Program-made: the position numbers and the translations under genes
Source: a virus
DNA length: 22,314 nucleotides
Virus record (IMG/VR): IMGVR_UViG_3300025110_000145
Location: 1-22,314 of that record
Reading direction: 5' to 3' (one strand)
Part shown: in pieces, positions 4,329 to 20,661 of the stretch
Layout of the letters: each line of letters opens with the position of its first letter
Position numbering within the stretch: the first letter of the stretch is position 1
Notes under the pieces: generated by a model
Told to the model about the DNA's origin: nothing
The model's database searches: none
Seen by the model: the letters and a program-made list of their open reading frames with translations, nothing else

Positions 4329-4864
4329 TGGATTATAAAATTGTTAATAATATATTAACACCTAATTTGATAAAATATTTAAAAACTATTTTAGCAGATC
4401 TTAGATTTGAGATTGGTAAAGATACATCTGATAATGAAAATATATTTGGTAAAGATGTAAACACTAAAGGAATGATGTGTTGTACTAGTCTTGATAAATA
4501 TAAAAATGAATTAATTAGTATAAGATTAAACGATTTTGGCTTTATAATAACTGAAATTGTATGTAAAAAATTAAATTTAAATCTAAAACAAATTAAAAGA
4601 ATTATGTGGAATTATTACACTCAAAACGAAGTAGGATCATATCATTGTGACCATGACCAAAATAATCATTATTCTATTTTATATTCTTTAAATACTTCTG
4701 ATGGCTATATTGAAATAAGTGATGAGAAAATATATGATATAGAAGATGAAGCTAAAATTTTTAAAAGTAATTTGAAGCATAGAGGAGTGGGACCAACAAA
4801 AACAAAATATCGTTTAAATTTAAATGTACTAGTAGAGGTAAATAATAATGGAACTTTCACGTAA
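4328..4864 (+). CDS. 2OG-Fe(II) oxygenase (prolyl-4-hydroxylase-like)
   Basis: This 178-residue protein has the signatures of a 2-oxoglutarate- and Fe(II)-dependent dioxygenase. The HxD iron pair is H106-C107-D108 in SYHCDHDQNNHYS; the distal iron ligand is H151 in LKHRGVGP; and R162, eleven residues on, is in position to bind 2-oxoglutarate. The intervening strands (YSILYSLNTSDGYIEI) fit the double-stranded beta helix. The family hydroxylates proteins, nucleobases or small molecules; the substrate here is unknown. It overlaps the endolysin gene by 17 bases, so the two should be co-expressed. It is very AT- and Lys/Asn-rich compared with the endolysin. Confidence 0.8.
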   Translation: MDYKIVNNILTPNLIKYLKTILADLRFEIGKDTSDNENIFGKDVNTKGMMCCTSLDKYKNELISIRLNDFGFIITEIVCKKLNLNLKQIKRIMWNYYTQNEVGSYHCDHDQNNHYSILYSLNTSDGYIEISDEKIYDIEDEAKIFKSNLKHRGVGPTKTKYRLNLNVLVEVNNNGTFT

Positions 4865-5332: not shown

Positions 5333-5360
5333 TTTGATTTACTTACTTTTATGGTATAAA
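5333..5360 (+). promoter_or_regulatory. Extended -10 promoter, probable leaderless start of the gene at 5366
   Basis: TGG directly precedes TATAAA (5355-5360), giving an extended -10; the -35 is weak (TTTGAT at 5333-5338, 16-base spacing). The ATG at 5366 begins only six bases after the hexamer, where transcription would start, and there is no Shine-Dalgarno. The arrangement recurs at 12894 and 14731. Confidence 0.55.
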
Positions 5361-5365
5361 TATAT

Positions 5366-5536
5366 ATGGCAATAACACGTGGACAAATACCAAGTTTATT
5401 AGAACCTGGCTTAGGTAGAGGTTGGGGTAAAAAAACTAGAAAAGAATTTAAAGTAAAGGCTCCAAATGTTAAAGGACTTAGCTCGTACTATGATGACCTT
5501 TATAAAAAATCCAGTAGCAAAAAAGTTAAGGTCTAG
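5366..5536 (+). CDS. 56-residue basic protein, first gene of the small basic protein island
   Basis: The ATG at 5366 has no Shine-Dalgarno but sits at the expected transcription start of the promoter before it. The protein reads MAITRGQIPSLLEPGLGRGW, then a Lys-rich middle (KKTRKEFKVKAP), a tyrosine pair (SSYYDDLYKK) and a basic tail. Many marine-phage small proteins begin with the same pattern of a threonine-arginine-glycine-glutamine. Function is unknown; it heads seven consecutive basic proteins. The next small gene overlaps its 3' end by 47 bases. Confidence 0.6.
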   Translation: MAITRGQIPSLLEPGLGRGWGKKTRKEFKVKAPNVKGLSSYYDDLYKKSSSKKVKV

Positions 5537-10120: not shown

Positions 10121-11104
10121 GTGGCTGACATTACAGTTCCAGTTCAGTCGCCAGGCTCTGAATATTGGGGTCAATCCACTTGGAGTTCTAATGACTGGGG
10201 TGGATCAGGAGTTTCGTTAGCTTCTGCTCAAGGCTCTGTTACAACAACCGCAAATGCGGATGTCTCTGTTACTGGTGTTCAATTAACATCATCTCAAGGT
10301 ACAACAATTGGTGGTACTTCTGCTTTAGTTCAAGTAACTGGAAGTTTAGAATCCATGGCTGTTGGTGGAGTAACTATTGGTATTGGTGTACCAGTTGGTT
10401 CATTGGGTATAGCAAGTAGTATTGGTGCTGCTACAGTAGATGAAGACGAACTAACAGGAATTGGTTGGGGTAGAAGAACTTGGGGTAACCTTGCATGGGG
10501 TGGAGCTTATTCTGTTATAGCAACTGGACAAACTTTAACTTCTTCAATTGGTTCTGCTATTGGAAAAACTGATGTATCGGTTTCTGTTACAAGTGCTGGT
10601 TCTTTAACTTCAACATTTGGAAGTTTTTCACTAAAAATAGATTCTGACATAACTGTATTTGCAGCTGAAGATCAACTAGACTTTACGATTGGAGCATCAG
10701 AATTCGATGCTGATGCTAATGTTACAGTAAGTAGTGCTGGATCATTAACTGGATCAATAGGAACTACAATTGCTGGACTTAAAACTCCTGTAGATGTAAC
10801 TGGTATTCAAGCTTCATTTACCATGGGAGATTTTACTCTGGTTCAATCTACAAATGAATCAGTTACTGGACAATCAGCAACTTTAACTTTAGGTCAACAT
10901 GCTGAAATACCTGGTCAAATTATAGGTGTTGGAGGATTACAATTATCTAGTTCTATTGGTTCAGTAACCGTGATTGGTTTAGCTAATATTGATGTTACAG
11001 GTATTCAAATGACTTCTTCTATAGGTAATGTTGCAGTAACACCTTGGCAAGAAGTAAATCCAGGTGTAACTAATACATGGTCAGAGGTTGATTTGGCAGC
11101 ATAG
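10121..11104 (+). CDS. Repeat-rich virion protein
   Basis: This 327-residue protein starts at GTG, chosen because AAAGGAGGAG (10107-10116) lies directly upstream. It contains about eleven degenerate repeats of 20-25 residues of the form V-T-G-x-Q-L-T-S-S-x-G, for example VTGVQLTSSQG (50-60), TGQTLTSSIG (135-144), AGSLTGSIG (206-214) and VTGIQMTSSIG (292-302). Two tryptophan-glycine segments interrupt it: YWGQSTWSSNDWGG (15-28) and GWGRRTWGNLAWGG (115-128). The pattern suggests an elongated beta structure such as a fibre or stalk. It lies immediately before the tail fibre gene, whose -35 promoter element is inside its last codons. Confidence 0.75.
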   Translation: MADITVPVQSPGSEYWGQSTWSSNDWGGSGVSLASAQGSVTTTANADVSVTGVQLTSSQGTTIGGTSALVQVTGSLESMAVGGVTIGIGVPVGSLGIASSIGAATVDEDELTGIGWGRRTWGNLAWGGAYSVIATGQTLTSSIGSAIGKTDVSVSVTSAGSLTSTFGSFSLKIDSDITVFAAEDQLDFTIGASEFDADANVTVSSAGSLTGSIGTTIAGLKTPVDVTGIQASFTMGDFTLVQSTNESVTGQSATLTLGQHAEIPGQIIGVGGLQLSSSIGSVTVIGLANIDVTGIQMTSSIGNVAVTPWQEVNPGVTNTWSEVDLAA

Positions 11105-11116
11105 AAAATGTATAAT
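11088..11116 (+). promoter_or_regulatory. Sigma-70-type promoter of the tail fibre gene
   Basis: TTGATT (11088-11093) and TATAAT (11111-11116) are separated by exactly 17 bases, the best overall match to a bacterial sigma-70 promoter in this window. The -35 lies inside the end of the previous gene. Transcription would begin about 20 bases before the fibre ATG and include its Shine-Dalgarno AGGAGA (11128-11133). Confidence 0.65.
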
Positions 11117-12871: not shown

Positions 12872-12899
12872 TTGACTTACCACTTTCAAGTGGTATAAA
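12872..12899 (+). promoter_or_regulatory. Promoter of the oxygenase cassette, probable leaderless start
   Basis: TTGACT (12872-12877) and TATAAA (12894-12899) are 16 bases apart, with TGG before the -10 (extended -10). The ATG at 12906 lies exactly where the transcript should begin, and no Shine-Dalgarno is present. The spacer is occupied by a perfect palindrome. Confidence 0.65.
12878..12895 (+). repeat. Palindrome between -35 and -10, candidate operator
   Basis: TACCACTT (12878-12885) is the exact reverse complement of AAGTGGTA (12888-12895) with a TC centre. The right arm overlaps the first two bases of the -10 hexamer. A dimeric repressor bound here would block the promoter. It could also form a small hairpin if read through from upstream. 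Confidence 0.55.
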
Positions 12900-12905
12900 A
12901 ACTCA

Positions 12906-13622
12906 ATGTTTAATGAATGTAAAATAAAATTTTACGCAGAGGAAGAATATATTAAAAATAGTCCCAATATACTTCCTATTCCAACTAAATTAAATATTCC
13001 TAGTTGGTTTAAAAAATTAGACCATAAAATAGATCAAAAAACAATAAAAGGTTGTATGCCTTTTTTAGATGCTATTACTTCTGGCTATATATTAAAGGTT
13101 CCAACTGATATGGAATTAGCAGTCAAACATAAAGATGATAAAATTCATCTTAATTTGAATATTGCAAGTAAGGATCATATTACTAATAGTCCAGAAAAAA
13201 TAGATTCAACTTTTCATGATAAAAATCAATTAGAGGGTTCTCCAATGATAGAGAAAAATAACGGAATGCCTTTTTTAAAAATTATGAATCCTTGGACTAT
13301 AAGAACACCAAAAGGTTATTCTTGTTTATTCTTGAATGTTTTAAATAATAATCAAAATAATTTTGAAATTATTTCTGGAATTGTTGATACTGATATTTAC
13401 AGAAATAAAATTAATTTTCCTATTGTTTTTAAAAAACACACTAAAGAAAATTCTTACTCTATCAAAGCAGGCACACCTTATGTTCAAGTAATTCCTTTCA
13501 AAAGAGACCATTGGAAAATGGAAGTCAAAAAAGATAGTAAACCAAATATTGGAATTGGTTTTTGGACTTCCTTTTTACATAGTTATAAAACAAAAGTATG
13601 GAAAAAGAAAAAATGGACATAA
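12906..13622 (+). CDS. Conserved hypothetical protein beside 2OG oxygenases (possibly DUF6065-like)
   Basis: This 238-residue protein starts at an ATG without a ribosome-binding site, at the expected transcription start. It has IPSWFKKLDHK, TIKGCMPFLDAITSGYILKV, then a central part with NGMPFLKIMNPWTIRTPKGY followed by SCLFLNVLNN, and TPYVQVIPFKRDHWKMEV near the end. The order PSWFK, GC-PFLDA-T-GY and NPW-I-TP-GYS is a conserved pattern I remember from marine phages, possibly the family listed as DUF6065, but I am not sure of the number. No known catalytic residues. It overlaps the next oxygenase, suggesting a joint role. Confidence 0.7.
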   Translation: MFNECKIKFYAEEEYIKNSPNILPIPTKLNIPSWFKKLDHKIDQKTIKGCMPFLDAITSGYILKVPTDMELAVKHKDDKIHLNLNIASKDHITNSPEKIDSTFHDKNQLEGSPMIEKNNGMPFLKIMNPWTIRTPKGYSCLFLNVLNNNQNNFEIISGIVDTDIYRNKINFPIVFKKHTKENSYSIKAGTPYVQVIPFKRDHWKMEVKKDSKPNIGIGFWTSFLHSYKTKVWKKKKWT

Positions 13623-14188
13623 AAGACTTTATACACATTGTACATCCAACTCTAGCACCAAGAACAATTGGCAATTTGATTCAGTTTGCAAATAAATTAG
13701 AATTTGAAGCTCAAGGAATTATAACAGAAGAAAATAAAGAAAAATCTATAATTAATACCACACATAGAAAAGTAAAAGGATCATGTCTAAGTAAGGATAA
13801 AAGTTTTACAGAAAATCATTGGTTCAATTTAATTTCTAAATTAATCTTTACTTCAATTAAAAATTTTGAAAATAAATTTTATACAAAATTTTCAGCTTCT
13901 CAAATAAACGAAATATCTATACTTAAATATGGAGCTGGAGATTTTTACAAAACACATACAGATTACAATATTAATTTTCCGAGATTACTAAGCGTTATTA
14001 TTTTTTTAAATAATGATTATAAGGGTGGAAGTCTAACTTTCCATTGTCCAAAAACTAATGAAATTATAAAAGAAGTAAAACCAGAAGTGGGAAAATTAGT
14101 ATTATGGCCTTCTAATTTTATGTACCCACATACTGCTCAAAAAGTAACTGAAGGAACAAGGTTTGTAATAGTATCATGGATAAGCTAG
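13598..14188 (+). CDS. 2OG-Fe(II) oxygenase, prolyl-4-hydroxylase type
   Basis: This 196-residue protein shows the complete motif set: LKYGAGDFYKTHTDYN with iron ligands H120 and D122, RLLSVIIFLNNDYKGGSLTF for the core strands, GKLVLWPSNFMYPHTAQKV with distal ligand H178, and R188 in TRFVIVSW for 2-oxoglutarate. This is typical of prolyl-4-hydroxylase-like (PKHD/PiuC-like) dioxygenases. The substrate is unknown: candidates are fibre proteins or host factors. The ATG at 13598 overlaps the preceding gene by 25 bases; a second ATG at 13613 (residue 6) is an equally good start. It overlaps the next oxygenase gene by 13 bases. Confidence 0.88.
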   Translation: MEKEKMDIKDFIHIVHPTLAPRTIGNLIQFANKLEFEAQGIITEENKEKSIINTTHRKVKGSCLSKDKSFTENHWFNLISKLIFTSIKNFENKFYTKFSASQINEISILKYGAGDFYKTHTDYNINFPRLLSVIIFLNNDYKGGSLTFHCPKTNEIIKEVKPEVGKLVLWPSNFMYPHTAQKVTEGTRFVIVSWIS

Positions 14189-14712
14189 GTAGAGCAAAAT
14201 ATAAGGTAGTCAAAAATTTTTTATCTCAAGATGAAATAAATTTGTGTGCAGAATATTTAAAAAGTAAACAAAGAAAATGTTATGACTTTGCTGCAGATAA
14301 CATTAATTATGACTCTGGTGTTTATAAAGATTTTTTATTAGATTCTATTTTAAAAATTAAAAAAAATAAAGTTGAAGAAGAGGTTGGTTTAAGATTAAAC
14401 CATACTTATTCTTTTTGGAGATGTTATACTTATAAGTCTACATTAGATAGCCACAAAGATAGGCCTTCTTGTGAATATAGTGTAACAATTTTTGTTGATG
14501 CAGATAAACCTGACTGGCCTATTTATATGGAGGGAAAACCTGTATCTTTGAAGCCAGGTGATGCTGTATTTTATAAGGGGTGTGAATTACAACATTGGAG
14601 AGAACCATATGAGGGAGACTATCATTTTCAATTTTTTTTACACTATGTTAACAAAGATGGTCCTTTTGCAGACTACAAAAATGATAAAATCAACGATAAG
14701 CAAGAACTTTAA
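14176..14712 (+). CDS. 2OG-Fe(II) oxygenase-like protein, second of the cassette
   Basis: This 178-residue protein has FWRCYTYKSTLDSHKDRPSC, giving the HxD pair H93-D95, then YSVTIFVDADKPDWPIYMEG, LKPGDAVFYKGCELQHW with distal H140, and a C-terminal DYHFQFFLHYVN. The usual 2-oxoglutarate-binding arginine is not in the standard place; R142 in WREPY or Q152 may serve. This variant lineage is seen in marine phages. It has little similarity to the other two oxygenases here beyond the motif. It is translated by coupling with the preceding gene. The cassette ends before the promoter at 14708. Confidence 0.75.
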   Translation: MDKLGRAKYKVVKNFLSQDEINLCAEYLKSKQRKCYDFAADNINYDSGVYKDFLLDSILKIKKNKVEEEVGLRLNHTYSFWRCYTYKSTLDSHKDRPSCEYSVTIFVDADKPDWPIYMEGKPVSLKPGDAVFYKGCELQHWREPYEGDYHFQFFLHYVNKDGPFADYKNDKINDKQEL

Positions 14713-14736
14713 GAAGTATAATTAAAATGGTATAAT
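14708..14736 (+). promoter_or_regulatory. Extended -10 promoter, probable leaderless start of the tail nozzle gene
   Basis: TGG precedes a perfect TATAAT (14731-14736); the -35 is poor (TTTAAG at 14708-14713, 17-base spacing). Five bases separate the hexamer from the ATG at 14742, and no Shine-Dalgarno is present. A second TATAAT occurs at 14717-14722. Confidence 0.6.
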
Positions 14737-14741
14737 ATGAC

Positions 14742-16892
14742 ATGCCTTTAACAAACGTACAAATACAACCTGGGTTTAATAAACAAGTAACACAAACTGG
14801 TGCAGAGGGTCAGTGGACTGATGGTGATTTTGTTAGATTTAGATATGGTCTACCAGAAAAAATAGGTGGATGGGCAGAAATTTTAGATAACACAATTGTT
14901 GGTGCAGCAAGAGAACAATTTATATGGGCAGATTTAGATGGAAGAAAATATGGAGCTATAGGAACAAACAAAGTTTTAATTATTTATTATGAAGGAGCTT
15001 TTTATGATATTACTCCTTTAGACACAGCATTGACTGGATGTACTTTTGATACTGTAAACACGTCTGCTACAGTTACAGTTAATAAAGCTGCACATTCTTT
15101 AGAACCAGGAGATTTATTTACTTTTACATCGGTAACTCCTCCAAGTGGAGCTGGTTACACAACAGCAGATTTTGAGACAAACACTTTTCAAGTAATCACA
15201 GTTCCTGATAGTGACGAATTTACAATTACTATGGCTTCTGCAGCAGGTACAACTGTTAATGGTAGTGGATCAGCTACTATAAACCCTTATGTAAAACCTG
15301 GAAATTTAAGTTCAACTTTTGGATTTGGATGGGGCACTGCTTTATGGGGTGGAGGTCAACAAGTATTTGGAACTCTTAATGGTGCCTTATTAGATGACAC
15401 TGCAGGAACAGGTGGGTCTGGAACTTCTATTACTTTAGCTTCAACAAGTGGTTTTCCAACATCAGGTACTATTAAAGTAGGGGCTGAATTTATTTCTTAT
15501 ACGGGTATTTCAACAAATGATTTAACTGGAATAACGAGAGCAGTGGCGGGTACTAGATCTGCTCATGCTGATGGATCAGGTGTAGAATTTTTTACTGGGT
15601 GGGGAGAATCTTCTTTATCACAAACTCTAAGTGTTGATCCAGCTTCATGGTCACTAGATAATTTTGGAGAACAATTAATAGCAACTATTAAAAATGGAAA
15701 ATCATTTTCTTGGAATCCTATTAATTCAAATCCTAATGCACTTACTACTAGAGCTATCATAATTTCAAATGCACCAACACAATCTGTAATGTCTTTAGTT
15801 TCTGATAGAGACAGACACCTATTTATGCTTGGAACTGAAACTACAATTGGAAGTCCAGGAACGCAAGATAAAATGTTTATAAGATTTTCTGATCAGGAAG
15901 ATATTACAGACTATACCCCAACTTCAGTTAACACTGCAGGATTTTTTAGACTTGATTCTGGTACAAAAATTGTTGGAGCAATAAAAGGTAAAGATTATAC
16001 TTTTGTATTAACTGATAATGCTGCATATGTAATTCAGTTTGTGGGACCTCCGTTTACATTTTCTGTAAGACAAGTTGGTTCTAATTGTGGATGTATTGGT
16101 CAACATGCAATGAAGTATGTTAATGGAGCTGTGTACTGGATGGGAGAATCAGGTGGCTTTTTTGTTTATGATGGTACTGTTAAAGCTTTACCATGTTTAG
16201 TAGAGGATTTTGTTTTTACAACTAAAGGATCTAATTTAGGAGTTAATTATGGAGATGGTGAATCAGTCTATGCTGGTCTTAATCATCTTTATGAAGAAAT
16301 AACTTGGTTCTATCCAAAAAATGGTAGTTCATTGGTTGACAGATGTGTAACATATAATTATCAAAATGGTACGTGGACAACTGGATCATTAGCTAGAACA
16401 ACTTGGGCTGATGCTAATTTATATGATGTGCCCTATGCTACAGAATTTAGTTCAACTAGTGTTCCAACTTTTCCAACGATTCAAGGTATTACAAATATAA
16501 ATGGTGCAACTACTTATTACGCACATGAAACAGGAGTTAATCAAGTAGACTCTGAAGGTAATAAAACTGCAATTCCAGCTTTTATACAATCTGGGGATTT
16601 TGATTTAAGTCAGGGAGGAGATGGTCAATTTTTTATGAGCATGAGAAGATTTATTCCTGATTTTAAGTTACTTACAGGTAATTGTCAGATCACTATAAAT
16701 TTAAGAAGATTTCCTTCTGATACTGCAAGCTCCTCGCCTCTCGGACCTTTTACTATATCAAGTTCTACAGAAAAAGTTGATACTAGAGCACGATCAAGAT
16801 TTGCAAGTTTAAAAGTAGAAAATACTTCAACAGATCAAAATTGGCGTTATGGCACGTTTAGAGCAGACGTTCAACCAGATGGAATGAGATAA
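14742..16892 (+). CDS. P22 gp10-like tail nozzle / DNA stabilisation protein
   Basis: This 716-residue protein begins MPLTNVQIQPGFNKQVTQTG, followed by WTDGDFVRFRYGLPEKIGGW, the signature of phage stabilisation (P22 gp10-like) proteins, which form the tail nozzle and keep packaged DNA in. The rest has beta-propeller-like segments (SLVSDRDRHLFMLG, KDYTFVLTDNAAYVIQF, AMKYVNGAVYWMGESGGFFV). Two inserted modules are visible: residues about 95-182, resembling the FCCH-like beta module (HSLEPGDLFTFTS...NTFQVITV), and about 228-285, the same SGTIKVGAEFISYTG module as in the gp4-like protein. A GWGTALWGGG segment (196-205) recalls the Trp-Gly segments of the repeat protein at 10121. P22 gp10 is about 470 residues; the insertions help explain the extra length. 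Confidence 0.88.
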   Translation: MPLTNVQIQPGFNKQVTQTGAEGQWTDGDFVRFRYGLPEKIGGWAEILDNTIVGAAREQFIWADLDGRKYGAIGTNKVLIIYYEGAFYDITPLDTALTGCTFDTVNTSATVTVNKAAHSLEPGDLFTFTSVTPPSGAGYTTADFETNTFQVITVPDSDEFTITMASAAGTTVNGSGSATINPYVKPGNLSSTFGFGWGTALWGGGQQVFGTLNGALLDDTAGTGGSGTSITLASTSGFPTSGTIKVGAEFISYTGISTNDLTGITRAVAGTRSAHADGSGVEFFTGWGESSLSQTLSVDPASWSLDNFGEQLIATIKNGKSFSWNPINSNPNALTTRAIIISNAPTQSVMSLVSDRDRHLFMLGTETTIGSPGTQDKMFIRFSDQEDITDYTPTSVNTAGFFRLDSGTKIVGAIKGKDYTFVLTDNAAYVIQFVGPPFTFSVRQVGSNCGCIGQHAMKYVNGAVYWMGESGGFFVYDGTVKALPCLVEDFVFTTKGSNLGVNYGDGESVYAGLNHLYEEITWFYPKNGSSLVDRCVTYNYQNGTWTTGSLARTTWADANLYDVPYATEFSSTSVPTFPTIQGITNINGATTYYAHETGVNQVDSEGNKTAIPAFIQSGDFDLSQGGDGQFFMSMRRFIPDFKLLTGNCQITINLRRFPSDTASSSPLGPFTISSSTEKVDTRARSRFASLKVENTSTDQNWRYGTFRADVQPDGMR

Positions 16893-19723: not shown

Positions 19724-19732
19724 TGCTATAAT
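19724..19732 (+). promoter_or_regulatory. Extended -10 promoter before the internal virion block
   Basis: TGC precedes a perfect TATAAT (19727-19732), giving an extended -10 with no obvious -35. It lies between the second glycosyltransferase and the gene at 19747, which has a short Shine-Dalgarno AGGA (19734-19737). The mRNA would have only a very short leader. Confidence 0.45.
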
Positions 19733-19746
19733 TAGGAAATTAGTAT

Positions 19747-20661
19747 ATGGATCCATTTACATTAGCACTAGCCACGTTTGGCGTACAAAAACTTCGGGGT
19801 AAATCAACAAAAAGAGCATTGAGAGATGCAGCCATAATTGGTGGTGGTTCTTATGCTTTAGGAGCTGCAGGTGTAGGACCTCAATCTTTTTCACAACCGG
19901 CTTTTTCTTCTATAGGTTTTGGTGGACAATCTGCGGTAGCTCAACAAGCAGCAGGATTACCACAATTAAGTAAATCACAAGTCGCAGGTGCACAATTTAG
20001 AACACCAGCTTTACAAGAAGTTGCTTTTAAAGAAGGAGCTATGGGTGCAGCAAAAAAAGGTGCAGTAGAGCCAACAGGTATTCAAGCATTATTAAAAAAA
20101 GCTAAAGATAATAAATTAGAAACTGCTTTGATTGCAAGTTCTGTTTTACCTTTACTAGGAGAAGAAGAAGAAGTAAAACCTATTTTTTCAGAAGAGGATT
20201 ATAAAAAAGCTTATGAACAACAATCAACAAAATTAGAAGGTGGTTTTGATCCAGTTACTAACGCAATGCCTACTAGATCAGAAGTTTTTGGTTCAAATAT
20301 GTTTTATGCAAACCAAGGTGGACTTGCAACAGCAATACCAAAATATAATCAAGGTGGTGTAAATTATCTTCCATCTAAAATAGATCACAACGAAAATGAT
20401 GTTAACAATTATGTTAGAGCAGAAGGTTATGTAGAAGATGGTGCAGGTGCTGGAGATAAAGATGAAGATACTATGTTAGCACAATTAGCAGATGGAGAAT
20501 TTGTATCACGTGCAGATGCAGTATTAGGAGCAGGTATATTATCTGGTGCAGACCCAAAAAGTTTTAAAGGTATGAGAAAAGCAGGAGCTGACTTTTTTTA
20601 TGATCAACAAAAAAAATTAAAAAGAATTTACGATTTAGTCAATGCAAGCAAACCAAACTAA
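19747..20661 (+). CDS. Internal virion / ejection-type protein
   Basis: This 304-residue protein starts with a helical, Ala/Gly-rich region (TKRALRDAAIIGGGSYALGA), then low-complexity Gln/Gly sequence and an acidic part. The C-terminal part carries DEDTMLAQLADGEFVSRADA followed by VLGAG (239-263), MRKAGADFFYDQQKKLKRIY. The DGEFV-x-x-x-AV motif is frequent in large internal or tape-measure-like phage proteins, and the C-terminal DPKSFKGMRKAGADFFYDQQ pattern in marine-phage virion proteins. Position in the last block supports an internal virion role. There is no enzyme motif I can identify. Confidence 0.75.
   Translation: MDPFTLALATFGVQKLRGKSTKRALRDAAIIGGGSYALGAAGVGPQSFSQPAFSSIGFGGQSAVAQQAAGLPQLSKSQVAGAQFRTPALQEVAFKEGAMGAAKKGAVEPTGIQALLKKAKDNKLETALIASSVLPLLGEEEEVKPIFSEEDYKKAYEQQSTKLEGGFDPVTNAMPTRSEVFGSNMFYANQGGLATAIPKYNQGGVNYLPSKIDHNENDVNNYVRAEGYVEDGAGAGDKDEDTMLAQLADGEFVSRADAVLGAGILSGADPKSFKGMRKAGADFFYDQQKKLKRIYDLVNASKPN

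Follow-up and report, generated by a model that had tools for sequence, protein, structure and literature searches.

A predicted leaderless structural gene in pelagiphages: sigma70-type promoters fused to the nozzle start codon at a cargo border

Introduction

The usual citations for leaderless phage mRNAs are isolated repressor examples; to our knowledge, phage structural genes have rarely been found to conserve a promoter fused to the start codon. Initiation on leaderless messages by 70S ribosomes has been reviewed, and the lambda cI mRNA, made from PRM by host polymerase with its start at the AUG, resembles the phage mRNAs proposed here (PMC9031893). However, cI encodes a repressor and belongs to a single regulatory circuit, whereas the gene considered here encodes a virion structural protein and carries a conserved promoter-start fusion at a cargo border. 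In bacteria, Zheng et al. (2011) described TA-led genes, which have a Pribnow-like TANNNT box approximately 10-12 bp upstream of the start and no Shine-Dalgarno sequence (SD); leaderless genes were common in Actinobacteria and Deinococcus and were detected in 2 of 117 alphaproteobacterial genomes (PMC3160421). The phage genes described below are alike in having a TANNNT-type box, with its first T 11-12 bp upstream, and in lacking an SD. In contrast to the many TA-led genes of one bacterium, only one core virion gene and a few unit heads are concerned here, and the pelagiphage host is an alphaproteobacterium whose own genes lack a peak of the TA-led type. With sigma70 extended -10 promoters (TGnTATAAT) they have in common the -35 element, the 17-bp spacer and the extended -10; unlike in generic promoters of this class, the discriminator is fixed at 5-6 bp against the ATG.

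The cargo in question has been described as moron or auxiliary metabolic genes: 2OG-Fe(II) oxygenases and 'ferrochelatases', the same gene pair as in the cassette studied here, co-occur in HTVC023P-type pelagiphage genomes (PMC9599517). Promoters and leaderless starts are not discussed in that paper, from which the word 'promoter' is absent, and a time-course RNA-seq study of HTVC027P (2025) is gene-level, its main text describing no promoters or start sites (PMC12753301). We found no report of leaderless genes in pelagiphages in the open literature.

Results and Discussion

An octamer upstream of three genes is a sigma70 extended -10 element

We analyzed a contig of 22,314 bases (a single record, hereafter the window) from an HTVC023P-type pelagiphage; phages of this group infect SAR11 bacteria and are very common in the ocean. 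Its nozzle protein matches those of Pelagibacter phages HTVC023P and HTVC027P and of phage 023Pt_psg01, and the capsid, endolysin, tail, 2OG oxygenase, nozzle and glycosyltransferase genes follow the order found in HTVC023P. PHROGs assigned the gene at 4848 as endolysin; its other assignments are given with the features in Table 1.

Table 1. Positions of promoter elements, genes and leader RNA helices in the window
Feature	Position	Strand	Remarks
Leader of gene 1096, helix H1	1013-1017/1041-1045		helix strands
Leader of gene 1096, helix H2	1028-1035/1061-1068		helix strands
Leader of gene 1096, helix H3	1052-1057/1077-1082		helix strands; next to SD 1083-1087
-35 box TTGATT before 5366	5334..5339	+	weak; 15-bp spacer; not conserved
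Extended -10 box TGGTATAAA	5352..5360	+	5 bases before ATG 5366; absent in L104, L105, L113
56-aa ORF, head of basic island	5366..5536	+	predicted leaderless, in window lineage only
Promoter TTGATT-17-TATAAT of tail-fibre gene 11142	11088..11116	+	short SD-containing leader follows
-35 box TTGACT of cargo-head promoter	12872..12877	+	34 nt before ATG 12906; spacer 16
Extended -10 box TGGTATAAA	12891..12899	+	6 bases before ATG 12906
First gene of cargo (oxygenase) cassette	12906..13622	+	PHROGs unknown family (phrog_7084); predicted leaderless
Remaining cargo cassette	13598..14712	+	2OG-Fe(II) oxygenase 13598-14188; 'ferrochelatase'-labelled gene 14176-14712
-35 box TTTAAG of nozzle promoter	14708..14713	+	T -34, T -33 and A -31 conserved; 17-bp spacer
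Extended -10 box TGGTATAAT	14728..14736	+	5 bases before ATG 14742
Tail-nozzle / stabilization-type protein gene	14742..16892	+	PHROGs virion structural protein (phrog_3287); predicted leaderless, start site A14742

A preliminary description of this DNA had proposed that three genes heading separate units are transcribed as leaderless mRNAs from promoters sharing the octamer TGGTATAA. The octamer is indeed present in three copies on the plus strand (5352-5359, 12891-12898 and 14728-14735) and none on the minus strand, each copy lying 6-7 bases 5′ of an ATG (5366, 12906 and 14742); the -10 hexamers end at 5360, 12899 and 14736, which leaves 5, 6 and 5 bases. No SD precedes these three genes, and SDs are present, as had been noted, at 1096, 1704, 7001, 9657, 10121 and 11142. 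An SD is also missing from many more genes of the window, nearly all of which overlap or abut the preceding stop codon. As for the octamer itself, 1767 octamers have at least three plus-strand copies, and among these a position 5-8 nt before the initial ATG of an ORF of 50 or more codons is occupied three times only by TGGTATAA, AAGGTAAG and AAAGGAGT. A generic promoter scan of the window found 91 promoters against 90 expected.

The idea that TGGTATAA is a special, phage-specific motif was given up, because its sequence is that of the sigma70 extended -10 (TGnTATAAT), and AGG, TGT, TGA or GGT serve equally in relatives. Nor does it mark a shared regulon in the relatives, where the octamer is not conserved and AGG, TGG, TGT, TGA and others precede the -10. 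The leaderless reading fared differently at each gene: conservation in relatives is overwhelming for 14742, which is also strongly supported by spacing, -35, extended -10, initiator base and lack of an SD; it is good in geometry for the 12906 cargo family; and it is absent for 5366, whose closest relatives have no motif.

The nozzle promoter is held at a fixed distance from the start codon

In 78 viral contigs encoding a nozzle protein 80-100% identical, the position of TATAAT is constant and the flanks have fully diverged. From a non-redundant set of 52 upstream regions (mutual identity below 70%), 45 have a TATAAT-type -10 ending 5 bases before the ATG (N5) and 6 have one ending 6 bases before it (N6); the remaining one has an SD instead. 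A -10-like box 10-12 bp upstream of the start, as in TA-led genes, is thus found in 51 of the 52. The clustering of exact TATAAT matches in one register, compared with background at any offset, has P ~1e-116, a value that we read as 'not chance' with the related sequences not being fully independent. The profile of 56 non-redundant upstream regions consists of a -35 TTTAa from -34, a 17-bp spacer, a G at -13, which is the mark of an extended -10, and TATAAT from -11 to -6. All elements of a sigma70 extended -10 promoter (-35, spacer of 16-18 bp, TGn or G, TATAAT) are therefore present, with a spacer of 17 at 14742 itself, where the TAA within the -35 box TTTAAG also terminates the upstream gene (ending at 14712).

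In L022, L040, L047, L085 and others, the -10 region before the nozzle gene is often an inverted repeat (e.g. AAGGTATAATACCTT), so that the opposite strand also has a -10 (TATTAT); the site is possibly bidirectional or an operator.

An SD occurs in 1 of the 45 N5 upstream regions, compared with 66% of other genes that have gaps of 13-60 nt. The start codon is fixed independently by SD-led homologues of the 023Pt_psg01 clade, which use the same nozzle start codon and share the N-terminus (L524, ATGCCGCTTACG). Directly before this ATG stands a pyrimidine in 43 of 45 N5 and 6 of 6 N6 regions, compared with 59% of other genes whose gap is 5 nt or more (p = 6e-8 for the excess); C alone is found in 42% versus 12%. 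Pyrimidine followed by purine (YA) is the usual initiator pair, and therefore the A of the nozzle ATG appears to be marked as the start site. Taken on the strength of these sequence patterns, it is highly probable that sigma70 promoters are fused to the start codons, that the nozzle mRNA is leaderless and that promoter and start form a self-contained unit at the cargo border.

The main technical doubt about a leaderless start is the 5-base discriminator. E. coli polymerase prefers to start at the 7th-9th base downstream of the -10, and N5 spacing places the A at the 6th, one base short of this preference, so that transcription could in some cases begin within the codon if the SAR11 polymerase behaves likewise. 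A start a few bases off, giving leaders of 1-3 nt or initiation within the codon and hence near-leaderless rather than leaderless mRNAs, would also fit the promoters of the HTVC027P clade, which end 7 bases before the ATG, and some relatives of the tail-fibre and MTKLCARG families, in which the distance is 8. We consider this unlikely, since selection for an initiator at the A would produce the pyrimidine that immediately precedes it in 49 of 51 nozzle upstream regions.

The promoter accompanies swappable cargo

The genes at 13598..14712 are swappable in relatives, and in the clade of the window highly variable genes precede the nozzle gene, mostly 2OG-oxygenase-like or 'ferrochelatase' cargo or a gene for a small protein of ~75 aa. 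Among HTVC023P-like loci, two with a 2OG oxygenase upstream (L358 and L368) have the promoter (TAAAAT, N5 or N6), and two with a different upstream gene ending 3-4 nt before the nozzle (L387 and L382) have none. The 023Pt_psg01 clade has a tail-fibre-like gene upstream and an SD in 12 of 15 non-redundant loci. In the HTVC027P clade, where the oxygenase genes are inverted, TTTCAT-17-TATAAn ends 7 bases before the nozzle ATG and a T precedes its A in 11 of 12 cases; the -35 here shares bases with the start codon of the divergent gene, and coding constraint accounts for part of its conservation. In the distant relatives DSL-LC04, CRP-902 and Octadecabacter virus DB2, the nozzle gene starts no more than about twelve bases from the preceding stop codon. 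Thus the promoter goes with swappable cargo upstream of the nozzle, and a tail gene in that place goes with an SD or an overlap. From this distribution the leaderless nozzle promoter looks derived and tied to cargo insertion.

Two further observations concern this region. The ~75-aa family (MKxxQkxDGSxxIxFsxxEixIi...) recurs as the cargo neighbour of the nozzle gene (L020-L024, L026, L040, L047, L080, L085 and L087), apparently with no match in PHROGs or Pfam. In HTVC027P (L010, 23750-23800) and its relatives L424-L503, the inverted oxygenase cassette and the nozzle gene have divergent starts within ~45 bp, and the plus-strand -35 (TTTCAT) includes the start codon of the divergent gene.

The same context bears on whether the promoters, even if real, matter for the nozzle protein, which could be translated mainly from transcripts reading through from the upstream gene, the promoter at the start codon adding little. 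Upstream genes on the same strand are close (gaps of 17-40 nt in most loci of the window's clade), and the terminator-like sites listed for the window include none between the cargo and the nozzle gene. On such an mRNA, however, there is neither an SD nor an overlap to start translation; the upstream gene lies on the opposite strand in six loci of the window's clade and in the HTVC027P clade; and a full promoter has been held at one spacing by selection. We therefore regard read-through as the main source of nozzle protein as improbable.

Geometry is conserved at 12906 and the promoter is confined to one lineage at 5366

Before 12906, exact TGGTATAA is kept in near-identical relatives only, and the geometry is conserved across the family. 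A hexamer TT[TG]AC[ATC] starts 33-37 nt before the ATG in 26 of 37 non-redundant family members, compared with 12 of 1143 other genes (p = 1.5e-35), with a peak at 34-35 as in the nozzle promoter; an SD is found in 0 of 37. This hexamer lies within the upstream gene in half of the cases, where part of the conservation may be coding, and outside it in 13. The -10 boxes of the family are weak, their inferred ends mostly 5-8 nt from the ATG, and the pyrimidine bias before the ATG is absent (21 of 37).

The homologues of 5366 in L104, L105 and L113 (84-94% identity) lack a promoter and begin in an overlap with the stop codon of the endolysin gene (TAATG), which confines the 5366 promoter to the window lineage. 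As a conserved element it was rejected.

Leaderless registers at other genes

A matrix derived from the nozzle promoters was slid over 4242 distinct gene starts and matches were counted at a threshold of 12. There were 72 at register 0 and 16 at register 1; at shifts 4-11 they almost vanish, small bumps being seen at 3 and 5, and at 12-24 they rise modestly. These bimodal registers indicate two groups, one predicted to be leaderless and one leadered with room for an SD. Matches in the leaderless registers come mostly from the nozzle family because most contigs were fetched with the nozzle gene; the others belong to the tail-fibre family (11142), the MTKLCARGK basic-island family (5599), homologues of 12906 and single cases. 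In some relatives of 11142 the start is of the leaderless type, the -10 being 5-8 nt from the ATG.

Like the window, HTVC023P itself has the arrangement at three genes, namely nozzle gp72 (A of the ATG at 48007), basic-island gp51 (32480) and tail gene gp69 (45693). Broad conservation is confined to the nozzle position and the 12906 geometry, and at other unit heads of HTVC023P-type phages the arrangement is sporadic. What had been suspected to be a class of late genes probably amounts to one core gene and sporadic unit heads associated with cargo insertion points.

A separate extended -10, TGCTATAAT, was noted at 19724-19747, 14 nt before the ATG at 19747, and most relatives examined have TGCTATWAT. 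The start predicted for this gene would exclude AGGA at 19734-19737, suggesting a leader of ~8 nt.

Host genes, other phages and the polymerase

In 748 ORFs from two SAR11 genomes (800 kb) there is no TATAAT peak at offsets 5-6 (3 and 4 matches versus ~2 per offset), and no peak of the nozzle matrix either; the arrangement was thus rejected as a host habit, with the caveat that a sample of this size might overlook a class of a few percent. It is also not a feature of all pelagiphages, as HTVC010P, HTVC019P, Skadi-1 and 023Pt_psg01 each have at most one match, approximately the control level. That TATAAT precedes the start codons merely by chance or base composition, as the AT-rich window and the at least three copies of TGGTATAA in 12 of 300 order-1 random sequences (which make its abundance alone weak evidence) might suggest, is hardly credible given the invariant register in 51 of 52 diverged relatives, the matching -35 and initiator base, and the lack of such a peak in other phage genes or the 748 SAR11 ORFs; this reading is refuted for 14742 and could still apply to 5366.

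A T7-type RNA polymerase was not found in HTVC023P, HTVC027P or 023Pt_psg01 (HTVC019P was detected as positive control), nor was sigma region 2 found in these three complete HTVC023P-type genomes. With neither a phage T7-type polymerase nor a phage sigma factor found, the host holoenzyme is the likely user of these promoters.

A model for the promoter-start unit

In the reading that we favor, promoters fused to start codons, the nozzle promoters would be of the host sigma70 type (-35 TTTAaa/TTTACw, 17-bp spacer, extended -10 RGnTATAAT), and their spacing would put the start of transcription on the A of the start codon. The resulting leaderless mRNA would be translated by direct binding of 70S ribosomes to the 5′-terminal AUG. 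Promoter and start codon would together form a self-contained unit of ~40 bp at the downstream border of a constantly swapped cargo region, giving the nozzle gene its own transcription and translation start whatever lies upstream, with insulation as the presumed benefit. The cargo head 12906 has the same geometry, and 5366 would have acquired a similar promoter in the window lineage only. The finding suggests how phages may protect structural genes at cassette insertion points. HTVC023P and HTVC027P are in culture and RNA-seq of HTVC027P infection exists, so the start site can be checked directly.

A broader and rather doubtful proposal is that virion genes of HTVC023P-type pelagiphages are partly expressed in a leaderless mode, in which promoter-start fusions at cassette borders would allow cargo to be inserted without breaking structural operons and 70S translation of these mRNAs would continue through a collapse of translation in the host. 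A published study reports infected SAR11 cells in which ribosomes were not detectable (PMC11066056).

A candidate leader RNA upstream of gene 1096

Positions 1013-1087, the leader of gene 1096, contain a conserved RNA found in 24 sequences, including the window, HTVC023P and HTVC027P, which is a candidate for a new pseudoknotted cis-regulatory RNA. A comparison with Rfam 15 gave no match at gathering level. Three helices are interleaved (H1a-H2a-H1b-H3a-H2b-H3b), and the last strand abuts or overlaps the SD. In H2, 98.9% of cells are paired and 7 of 8 pairs have changed on both sides, with a covariation score of 0.71 compared with 0.22 for shuffled and at most 0.13 for slid alignments. The strands of H1 switch together with their partners (CCTAG/CTAGG, CCAAG/CTTGG, ACTATAC/GTATAGT), as do those of H3 (GTATAG/CTATAC, CTATAG/CTATAG, CCTAG/CTAGG). 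A -10 TATAAT lies just upstream at 1000-1005, so that the RNA would start next to H1. Also in this part of the window, a strong intrinsic-terminator-like hairpin, the longest in the window, lies 3′ of the capsid gene at 915-948.
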